Shown here: positions 25,791 to 27,863 of the stretch, piece after piece
Numbering within the stretch: the first letter of the stretch is position 1
How the letters are laid out: the number at the start of each line of letters is the position of its first letter
Origin: an uncultured SAR86 cluster bacterium
GTDB taxonomy: Bacteria > Pseudomonadota > Gammaproteobacteria > Magnimaribacterales > AG-339-G14
NCBI GenBank assembly: GCA_902589965.1
Contig: CACIUX010000011.1
Coordinates: forward strand, 1-44,636
Reading direction: 5' to 3'
DNA: 44,636 bases
Translations under genes and position numbers: made by a program
The notes under the pieces: generated by a model
Told to the model about the DNA's origin: nothing
Databases searched by the model: none
The model's input: only the letters and a program-made list of their open reading frames with translations

Positions 25791-25816
25791 AAAGGGAGGT
25801 TAAAAAACCCCCCTTT
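25791..25816 (-). terminator. Rho-independent terminator of the YRG-protein transcript
   Basis: On the minus strand a stem of AAAGGGGGG with CCTCCCTTT (one mismatch, A/T-rich loop) is followed by a run of T. It lies 17 nt after the stop of the 53-aa ORF, marking the end of a one-gene unit. Confidence 0.8.
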
Positions 25817-25832
25817 AATTCATAACTTACAG

Positions 25833-25994
25833 TTATGCAGCAGTCTTGACACCACGGTAAATACCAGGTGTTTTTGACGACTTTTTGACAACGTTTGCGT
25901 CGTGCTTAGTTCCTCTGTAGTTCAAGCCAGAAGCCTTTTCAGACTTTGATTTAACATCAGAAGAAACTTCAACGCCTCTATAGTAAGTAGTCAT
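25833..25994 (-). CDS. 53-aa YRG-repeat small protein (DUF4278-like pattern)
   Basis: An overlooked small gene with an excellent ribosome-binding site (GGAGG, 6 nt before the ATG). The 53 residues contain three copies of a YRG motif: MTTYYRGVEV at the N-terminus, LNYRGTKHD in the middle and GIYRGVKTAA at the C-terminus, separated by Lys/Ser-rich linkers. This is the pattern I associate with the DUF4278 family of small proteins common in cyanobacteria; unverified. It has its own promoter (-10 at 26198-26203), a long leader that looks like a glutamine riboswitch, and its own terminator. It lies just downstream of glnK-amtB on the same strand. A role in nitrogen status signalling, perhaps binding PII or a nitrogen enzyme, is inference. 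Confidence 0.85.
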   Translation of the reverse strand: MTTYYRGVEVSSDVKSKSEKASGLNYRGTKHDANVVKKSSKTPGIYRGVKTAA

Positions 25995-26054
25995 ATCGTT
26001 CCTCCAGTTTTCGTTTCAAACGTACATATACCAATCGGTATACACCCTTATCAA

Positions 26055-26191
26055 CGCGTTCCTTCGGTAGATATTCGGTCTCGTTCCCAATTTCTTGGTA
26101 CTTGCTTACCTTTCTTTAAGATCAAAGAAAGAGGTTTTCCTATCTCCCTACTTCCGTTTAGTAAATTTGATGAAAAATACTAAATGAACGT
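26055..26191 (-). promoter_or_regulatory. Glutamine riboswitch-like aptamer (glnA RNA motif)
   Basis: Read on the minus strand, the leader begins with CGUUC (26190-26186), then a 7-bp hairpin UUUAGUA/UACUAAA (26184-26178 with 26163-26157), then the block AACGGAAGUAGG (26158-26147). A variable arm closed by AGAUA/UAUCU (26145-26141 with 26073-26069) follows, then the block CCGAAGGAACGCG (26067-26055). The GAACG of the last block pairs with the opening CGUUC to form P1. The order P1-P2-GGAAGUA-P3-GAAGGAACG and the sequences match what I remember of the glnA glutamine aptamer (Rfam glnA RNA), known mainly from cyanobacteria and marine metagenomes. The P3 arm carries a 67-nt insertion with an 8-bp hairpin (26131-26124/26117-26110). 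The aptamer starts exactly at the predicted transcript start and controls the 53-aa YRG gene. Confidence 0.82.
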
Positions 26192-26197
26192 GAATTT

Positions 26198-26206
26198 ATT
26201 ATACCA
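26198..26206 (-). promoter_or_regulatory. Extended -10 promoter of the riboswitch/YRG unit
   Basis: The minus strand reads TGGTATAAT, a perfect -10 hexamer with an upstream TGN extension. The -35 region lies in the T-rich tail of the amtB terminator and is weak. A start 6-8 nt downstream falls at about 26191, the first base of the aptamer. Confidence 0.75.
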
Positions 26207-26227: not shown

Positions 26228-26256
26228 AAACAGGCGAGATAAAATCTCGCCTGTTT
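26228..26256 (-). terminator. Terminator of the glnK-amtB operon
   Basis: A 13-bp perfect stem (core CAGGCGAGAT with ATCTCGCCTG, loop AAA on the plus strand) sits 18 nt after the amtB stop and is followed on the minus strand by T-rich sequence. It separates amtB from the downstream riboswitch unit. Confidence 0.92.
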
Positions 26257-26273: not shown

Positions 26274-27509
26274 TTAGTCGAACTCTGGGTAAGCCTCTAC
26301 TCCAATTTCAGTAGAATCAAGACCTGCCATTTGTTCTTCATCAGTTGCTCTTATTGTTAAGAACATATTGATGACGTAGATAACTATTAAGCTAGCAACA
26401 TAAGTGAATCCTGCGATAGCAAGAACTCCGTAGAACTGCCATAGGAATGAAGCATCCGAAGTGAATGGAACAACCATTACTCCGTAAATACCTACTGTAC
26501 CGTGAGCAGAAATTGCACCAACTGGATCATCCATTTTTAAGGTTTTCTCAAAGAATAAAATTGAGAAGTAGACTAGAACACCACCGATAGCACCGATGAT
26601 GACTGCCTCACCACCTGTAGGTGCGCTTGGACCAGCAGTAATGGCTACCAAACCAGCAATGGCACCGTTGATGGCCATTGTGACATCCGATTTGCCAGTT
26701 AGAATAAGACTTGTAAGTAATGCGGCAACTACACCACCTGCTGCAGACATATTTGTATTCATGAATACTTGACTTACTGCGATTGCACTTGATTCATCAC
26801 TAATAATCAACTCAGATCCACCGTTAAATCCAAACCAACCCAACCAGAGTATCCATGCTCCTAATGCAGCAATCGGAATATTTGAGCCTGGCATCGCATT
26901 TACTGAGCCATCCATACCGTACTTACCTTTTCTAGGACCGAGAACTGTGACTAAAGCTAAAGCTGCAGCCGCTCCACATAGGTGAACTGTTCCTGAACCT
27001 GCGTAGTCTGAATAACCACCTGAACTCAAGAATCCACCACCCCAATTCCAGTAACCTTGAATGGGGTATATGAAACCAGTAAGGATAACAGCGAACAAGA
27101 AGAATGGTAAAAGTTTCATTCTCCCAGCTACGGCTCCTGAAACAATTGACATAGCTGTCGCAACAAAGACTACTTGGAAAAAGAAGTCAGCTTGTTGAGA
27201 ATAGTCCATACCATATTCCATTCCAATTTCTTCTATTGGAAGAGCTGTTGATAGACCCCATGAAGATCCAATACCAGGAATAACTCCATCGATTAGTGAG
27301 GATCCGGGATACATTAAAATAAATCCGCATGCTAGATACATGATGCAAGCAATTGAATATAAACCTAAATTTTTTGTTACGATTTCCGATACGTCTTTCT
27401 TTTGAACCAATCCAGCTTCCAACATTGTGAAACCGGCAGCCATAAACATAACTAAGGCACCAGCCATAATTGCGTAAAAGGTATCTACCGCAAATTTTAT
27501 TTCATCCAT
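26274..27509 (-). CDS. amtB: Ammonium transporter AmtB
   Basis: A 411-residue channel with 11 predicted membrane helices. The twin pore histidines are H176 (GTVHLCGA) and H336 (ISAHGTVGIYG), with the structural Asp168 just before the first (GYSDYAGS). It conducts ammonia/ammonium into the cell and is blocked by PII binding. It follows glnK by 15 nt with an AGGAG ribosome-binding site, the standard glnK-amtB arrangement. The C-terminal cytoplasmic tail (from about 385) is the PII-binding region in the family. It ends at a strong terminator. Confidence 0.96.
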   Translation of the reverse strand: MDEIKFAVDTFYAIMAGALVMFMAAGFTMLEAGLVQKKDVSEIVTKNLGLYSIACIMYLACGFILMYPGSSLIDGVIPGIGSSWGLSTALPIEEIGMEYGMDYSQQADFFFQVVFVATAMSIVSGAVAGRMKLLPFFLFAVILTGFIYPIQGYWNWGGGFLSSGGYSDYAGSGTVHLCGAAAALALVTVLGPRKGKYGMDGSVNAMPGSNIPIAALGAWILWLGWFGFNGGSELIISDESSAIAVSQVFMNTNMSAAGGVVAALLTSLILTGKSDVTMAINGAIAGLVAITAGPSAPTGGEAVIIGAIGGVLVYFSILFFEKTLKMDDPVGAISAHGTVGIYGVMVVPFTSDASFLWQFYGVLAIAGFTYVASLIVIYVINMFLTIRATDEEQMAGLDSTEIGVEAYPEFD

Positions 27510-27524
27510 TAAAATCTCCTAAAA

Positions 27525-27863
27525 TTAAATAGCTTTTGAGCCTGTCTCACCTGTTCTAATTCTTACAACATCAGTGAGTTCAGTTATAAAAATTTTCCCG
27601 TCGCCAATCTTTCCCGTGCCTGCAGCATTTCTTACAGCTTCAATGATTGATGAAGTATCTCCATCATCACAAGCTACTTGAAACATTACTTTAGGATTTG
27701 TATCTGCTCGATACTCAGTTCCACGGTAAGTTTCAGACTGACCTTTTTGTGACCCATAACCTGAAGCTTCTATTATTGTTGCACCACCTATACCTGAAGA
27801 ATGCAAAGCTTCCTTTACTAATTCAGTTTTTGATGGTTTTACAATCAAAGTAAGTAACTTCAT
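27525..27863 (-). CDS. glnK: PII nitrogen regulatory protein
   Basis: A 112-residue PII protein. The T-loop carries the uridylylation site Tyr51 in TYRGTEYR, and the body includes GYGSQKGQ (canonical GFGRQKGH) and the C-terminal nucleotide-binding block GKIGDGKIFITEL followed by VVRIRTGE. PII senses 2-oxoglutarate, ATP/ADP and, by uridylylation, glutamine, and controls AmtB. Position next to amtB makes the name glnK appropriate. It has a palindrome resembling an NtrC site in its upstream region. The residue stretch GATIIEASGYG differs from the usual TVTEVKGFG but keeps the fold spacing. Confidence 0.95.
   Translation of the reverse strand: MKLLTLIVKPSKTELVKEALHSSGIGGATIIEASGYGSQKGQSETYRGTEYRADTNPKVMFQVACDDGDTSSIIEAVRNAAGTGKIGDGKIFITELTDVVRIRTGETGSKAI

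Follow-up and report, generated by a model that had tools for sequence, protein, structure and literature searches.

A conserved three-way-junction RNA domain nested in a predicted glutamine-I riboswitch leader of SAR86 bacteria and marine phages

Our analysis demonstrates a conserved RNA module, folded as a three-way junction, in the leader of a small protein gene of an uncultured SAR86 cluster bacterium. SAR86 bacteria are abundant surface-ocean heterotrophs with streamlined genomes. The leader is encoded on the minus strand of the stretch of DNA analysed here (the window; 44,636 nt), and we consider it likely that it represents a glutamine-I leader in which P3 is replaced by the nested module and a third module extends toward the ribosome-binding site, and that it regulates translation of the downstream gene for a triple-YRG protein. 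An earlier note, made from the letters of this DNA alone, had read the leader as a glutamine riboswitch. That reading is right, yet incomplete, in that it covers neither the domain nested in the arm, nor a third module, nor the gene for the small protein. While the riboswitch class is already known, we did not find the nested module, the third module or their distribution in SAR86 and phages described in Rfam or in the literature searched; an earlier mention is not excluded, as the primary riboswitch papers were poorly covered.

Glutamine-I aptamer, transcription unit and YRG protein

A blind Rfam cmscan of the whole window returned one match to the glutamine-I riboswitch family RF01739 (26192-26053, minus strand; 39.4 bits, E 3.3e-5), which lies above the gathering score of 35 bits; the only other gathering-level matches were three tRNAs. 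For the Downstream-peptide family RF01704, which the earlier note had proposed to search alongside glutamine-I, no gathering-level match was found in the window and none at E<=10 between 25500 and 26700. The window has one RF01739 match, and its second RNA domain is nested and matched by no Rfam family; the leader is thus not a tandem riboswitch, in which one complete known aptamer follows another. The motif elements listed in the earlier note are all present on the minus strand and in order, i.e., P1 (CGUUC 26190-26186 paired with GAACG 26061-26057), the 7-bp P2 (UUUAGUA/UACUAAA), the loop-E 5′ half CGGAAGUA, the long closed P3 arm, and GAAGGAACG. The aptamer block CGGAAGUAGG is found at 26156-26147 and the block CCGAAGGAACGCG reaches about 26055. 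In the cmscan alignment all core bases of RF01739 were matched, including the loop-E AGUA/GAA and the CGUUC/GAACG of P1.

Table 1. Features of the leader and its surroundings in the window.
Feature	Position	Strand	Evidence
glnK/PII, upstream neighbour	27525..27863	-	PF00543, 92.5 bits
amtB, ammonium transporter, upstream neighbour	26274..27509	-	PF00909, 314 bits
Intrinsic terminator between amtB and the leader, ending the glnK-amtB unit	26228..26256	-	13-bp stem and T tail
Extended -10 box TGGTATAAT	26198..26206	-	sequence; predicted transcript start near 26191
Glutamine-I aptamer, 134 nt (predicted)	26057..26190	-	RF01739, 39.4 bits; P2 covariation
Nested three-way-junction domain, 77 nt	26069..26145	-	covariance model R1, 80 bits; anchored covariation; RNAalifold
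Loop-E 5′ half AGUA of the nested domain	26099..26102	-	3′ half GAA at 26086-26084; near-invariant in cellular and viral copies
Third conserved module: P7 CGU/ACG, GAUAAGGGUG, hairpin P8, GUACG...GA	26012..26056	-	conserved in A1 and A5; P8 covariation
Shine-Dalgarno GGAGG	26001..26005	-	sequence
53-aa triple-YRG protein, DUF4278-like	25833..25994	-	PF14105, 24.0 bits, E 5e-5
Intrinsic terminator 3′ of the YRG gene	25791..25816	-	terminator prediction

Conservation analysis showed that P2 pairs 1-4 are canonical in 30/30 cellular and 34/34 viral copies, with up to five pair types, and pairs 2-4 occur as two to four pair types in the cellular copies (30/30 canonical). P1 is invariant across copies and is thus not testable by covariation, so that the covariation check suggested in the earlier note was positive for P2 and uninformative for P1. 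The short P3 hairpin of the Rfam consensus is not met in the window, whose P3 carries the nested domain; since the model allows insertions in P3 and the match stays above gathering, we treat the window aptamer as a variant. Its score is modest owing to the 79-nt insertion. A low score of this kind might also come from a degenerate relic or arise by chance in AT-rich DNA, an explanation that we regard as practically ruled out by conservation over many SAR86 genomes and viral contigs, by the covarying P2, and by a compact 68.5-bit aptamer elsewhere in the same genome (G000:C3:105488-105546), located 35 nt upstream of a gene that by its sequence is gltB-like, i.e., for the large subunit of glutamate synthase. 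The match above gathering, the conserved core, the covarying P2, the glnK/amtB neighbours and the association with DUF4278 support a genuine glutamine-I riboswitch by family membership, with glutamine binding inferred and no binding data at hand.

The leader is located downstream of amtB, as the earlier note had it, but not directly, as an intrinsic terminator stands between them. The proposal that transcription starts on the first aptamer base is plausible from the extended -10 box, which lies 7 nt before this base; in a simple search for -35/-10 pairs no complete sigma-70 site turned up. A sigma70-like -10 is present in 25/35 distinct cellular upstream sequences. Based on the terminator before the leader, its own -10 box and the terminator after the ORF, leader and YRG ORF probably form a monocistronic unit.

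The encoded protein carries three YRG motifs (MTTYYRGVEV...NYRGTKHDA...IYRGVKTAA) and is small and basic (11 K/R and 4 D/E by count). Judged by its sequence it is related to DUF4278: the window protein falls 1.3 bits short of the PF14105 gathering score of 25.3, and 11/12 YRG homologues match the family, with a best E of 2.8e-8. No relative with a solved structure was found. In IF17, which inactivates glutamine synthetase in cyanobacteria, DUF4278 covers the N-terminal part; the expression of its gene gifB is activated by a glutamine-I riboswitch in the mRNA, and cyanobacterial glutamine-I aptamers stand mainly before DUF4278 genes (PMC6316151). IF17 and the YRG protein have the DUF4278 part alone in common, and inhibition of glutamine synthetase by the latter is inferred. 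The YRG repeats (YRGTKH) are also similar to the YRGTEY T-loop of the adjacent GlnK; mimicry would be speculation only.

Compared with described glutamine-I riboswitches, the leader shares P1, P2, the CGGAAGUA/GAAG loop-E core, GAACG, the association with nitrogen genes and, with those of cyanobacteria, DUF4278 downstream (PMC6316151, PMC2864571). It differs in the three-way-junction domain on P3 and in the extra module before the ribosome-binding site. Moreover, its hosts, a heterotrophic gammaproteobacterium and phages of the sea, lie outside the cyanobacteria, to which the class is said to be restricted (PMC6316151). Glutamine-II riboswitches (Downstream-peptide, RF01704) likewise precede a small DUF4278-type protein and have a related ligand site (PMC6698751, PMC6316151), but the window leader has no RF01704 match and a three-way junction in place of their pseudoknot.

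A conserved domain nested in P3

The long closed arm seen in the earlier note is present; rather than a plain hairpin, it is a conserved nested domain. In an alignment of 22 long-arm SAR86 leaders, conservation of the arm was above that of an ordinary hairpin. The domain consists of P4 (AGAUA/UAUCU), J4/5 (GAAAACC), P5 (U.G plus CUUUCUUU/AAAGAAAG), J5/6 (UAAGCA), the loop-E AGUA, P6, GAA and J6/4 (CGAGACCGAA).

The stems were derived independently of an alignment by anchoring 27 distinct sequences on invariant blocks. P4 pairs 2-4, P5 pairs 1-6 and P6 pairs 1-2 are always canonical where present, and most of them show two to four pair types. In a MAFFT alignment of the domain 91% of the cells pair, and covariation reaches 0.545 compared to 0.175 for shuffled alignments and at most 0.161 for slid structures; RNAalifold recovers the same three stems unaided. 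The junction strands GAMAACC, AGC(A/U)(A)AGUA and GAAC(A)GAGACCGA are near-invariant, and the AGUA/GAA around P6 forms a loop-E motif that resembles the P3-flanking one of glutamine-I (PMC6698751). No Rfam family matched the domain at the gathering level or at E<=10. A covariance model built for it, R1, separates real copies (66-84 bits) from chance matches (at most 24.5 bits).

About 30 unpaired, nearly invariant junction bases, covarying stems and a loop-E motif are as expected of an aptamer. The nested domain could thus be a second ligand-binding aptamer and the leader a two-input composite riboswitch, a reading that we put forward only tentatively, as the domain has no Rfam relative and no candidate ligand. 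In line with it, the YRG genes of two loci from other SAR86 genera (L058 and L066) instead have two compact glutamine aptamers in tandem before them, so that selection may act on a second input site, and tandem glutamine-I doublets are already known (PMC9481103). The latter, like the window leader, place two conserved RNA domains before one gene; in the window, in contrast, the second domain is nested in the first and is not recognisable as a glutamine aptamer. The extended form of this idea, a new aptamer class within the P3 of glutamine-I that integrates glutamine with a second signal and controls a DUF4278 regulator in SAR86 and phages, is possible and no more than that.

Distribution and gene linkage of the nested domain

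R1 detected the nested domain in 41/151 genomes of the SAR86 order; 33 of these 41 are among the 40 genomes that represent the window's family in the sample. Most contigs with the nested leader in the named genome collection bear the name SAR86 cluster bacterium, in agreement with the SAR86-like host inferred in the earlier note. Outside the order, R1 was absent from the class sample, except for two matches of 21-23 bits at E>0.02, and from 398 genomes of the phylum sample; cyanobacteria were covered by the exact pattern only, without R1. One Halieaceae MAG carries the domain (66 bits with R1) on the same contig as glnK and amtB, and about 100 marine viral leaders carry it as well. A pattern search built from the two most conserved blocks of the domain matched 63 viral contigs, of which 61 proved real on inspection, and 43 genome contigs, of which 36 were real.

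Several candidates were rejected. Pattern matches in Pseudomonas, Nocardiopsaceae, Phyllobacterium, Campylobacterales, Acidovorax and Methylobacterium lack a surrounding aptamer, score at most 24.5 bits with R1 where scored, and are due to chance. A Flavobacteriales match (L173), near-identical to the leader L113 of a phage, was taken for a phage contig within a bin. The cyanophage-like contigs L287 and L351 show a different repeat arrangement instead of nesting. In isolated phages, nothing was found by blastn with the window leader and two viral leaders or by tblastn with the window YRG protein.

Two further features of viral loci were observed. A T4-like late promoter, TATAAATA, lies at most 30 nt from the aptamer in 22/47 distinct viral upstream sequences (e.g., L077, L087 and L094) compared to 0.4% of random 30-mers, suggesting that the phage copies of the nested leader may be late genes. 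Cyanophage-like YRG genes (MAxVTYRGVxYD...; L325-L403 and L287) have another composite leader, GACGCAAGUAAGCCGACUCGGAACG-N3-5-CGUUCA-hairpin-GACGCAAAAGCCGACUGAAGGAACG, composed of interleaved glutamine-aptamer halves and with at least 120 matches in IMG/VR.

A YRG ORF is located downstream of every readable nested leader (22/22 SAR86 loci, 36/36 genome contigs and 98/98 viral copies); the SAR86 and genome-contig sets overlap, as several loci come from genomes present in both, and there are near-duplicates among the viral contigs. Among the copies found, the nested module is linked exclusively to YRG genes. Every checked copy also sits within a glutamine-I aptamer. Because the regular expressions used for the linkage counts required the aptamer core, core conservation is given by construction there, and the latter statement rests on the inspected pattern matches, which did not require it.

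A domain never seen outside a glutamine-I aptamer or before another type of gene counts against a second aptamer, since a general aptamer usually has its own regulon. Strict co-occurrence, together with the direct stacking of the domain on P3, in some phages via a P3 of only 3 bp (GAC/GUC), would fit a peripheral scaffold that stabilises or tunes the glutamine aptamer and has no ligand of its own. We can entertain this reading only with reserve, as compact aptamers without the domain exist in the same order and the near-invariant junction strands exceed the apparent needs of a simple scaffold. Exclusive linkage of leader and gene is also typical of autogenous leaders, in which the domain would bind the small, basic YRG protein, or another protein, and place the YRG mRNA under autogenous feedback; proteins commonly bind at loop-E motifs. 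Such a protein site appears rather unlikely, given that YRG genes also stand behind compact or tandem aptamers without the domain, at 4 SAR86 aptamers and in 34 viral cases.

Compact aptamers are widespread. RF01739 exceeds the cut-off in 59/151 genomes of the SAR86 order and reaches E<=0.01 in 78/151; among 274 gammaproteobacterial genomes only three have a match at E<=1e-4, all members of this order. The compact copies in SAR86 loci adjoin YRG genes in four cases, the tandems of L058 and L066, and other genes in 61, standing before gltB, glnA and others. At three loci (L022, L026 and L059; genera g6 and g9) they precede a conserved 482-483-aa ORF without identity.

GlnE was not detected in any of the 31 SAR86-order genomes examined, with positive controls and with genome incompleteness as a caveat. 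GlnD was over cut-off in 15/31 of them and in 0/8 from the window's family, where five had no match and three had partial matches below cut-off. The failure to find GlnE and GlnD leaves room for RNA-based glutamine sensing; the riboswitch is not simply a replacement for GlnD, as families f2 and f3 keep GlnD yet have the riboswitch. A 258-aa NtrC-like protein in the window's genus (G000:C9:14396-15139) covers no more of TIGR01818 than the receiver (1-154) and a C-terminal part (370-463), and the central AAA+ domain is apparently missing.

Third module, proposed mechanism and significance

Between P1 and the Shine-Dalgarno sequence most leaders share the consensus CGUU-GAGAAGGGUG-P8-UGUACGAAAUCGA-ACG. 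The P8 hairpin covaries, and the P7 strands co-vary as CGU/ACG, CUA/UAG, CUU/AAG and CAU/AUG. The leaders obtained by scanning viral sequences for this third module alone carry the nested domain too, as far as upstream sequence was available, and include the variants AGCUAAGUA/GAACAGAGACCGACA. Eleven viral leaders lack the third module and have another hairpin in its place, which in those folded buries the Shine-Dalgarno sequence. The module looks like an expression-platform element, but folding revealed no visible switching route: with ViennaRNA, accessibility of the Shine-Dalgarno sequence was not consistently altered by constraining the aptamer (mean unpaired 0.37 in the free and 0.38 in the constrained folds), which leaves the expression platform unexplained. 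Occlusion of this site by ACCUC, an invariant stretch in the nested domain, is unsupported (mean pairing probability 0.07), and occlusion through pairing of the P1 5′ strand CGUUC with GGAACG fails in most homologues, which have no GAACG there (e.g., GGCACG).

In the mechanism that we propose, transcription would start at or near the first aptamer base and yield a short mRNA for the YRG protein. The glutamine-I aptamer would fold with its P3 arm replaced by the second conserved three-way-junction module, and the third module would join P1 to the ribosome-binding site. Glutamine, as a signal of nitrogen repletion, is inferred from the conserved core and the family to bind the outer aptamer; it would stabilise P1 and the junction and raise YRG translation, an ON direction adopted from cyanobacteria. 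The YRG protein may then damp glutamine synthetase or another step of nitrogen assimilation, as suggested by DUF4278. The nested module may modulate the switch as a second ligand site, a stabilising scaffold or a protein site.

Glutamine riboswitches, as predicted here, are spread over much of the SAR86 order, where they stand before gltB, glnA and YRG genes. As a conserved RNA domain to which Rfam assigns no family, the nested module is directly testable for a ligand. Contigs of marine T4-like phages carry it as well, and a T4-like late-promoter sequence often precedes it there. A glutamine-I motif is likewise known from the marine T4-like phage Melnitz of OM43, where it is tied to ssrA (PMC9004378), whereas the SAR86 and viral leaders described here combine a YRG gene with the nested domain. 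The phage copies suggest that phages carry the same nitrogen switch, which might provide a possible handle on phages infecting SAR86.
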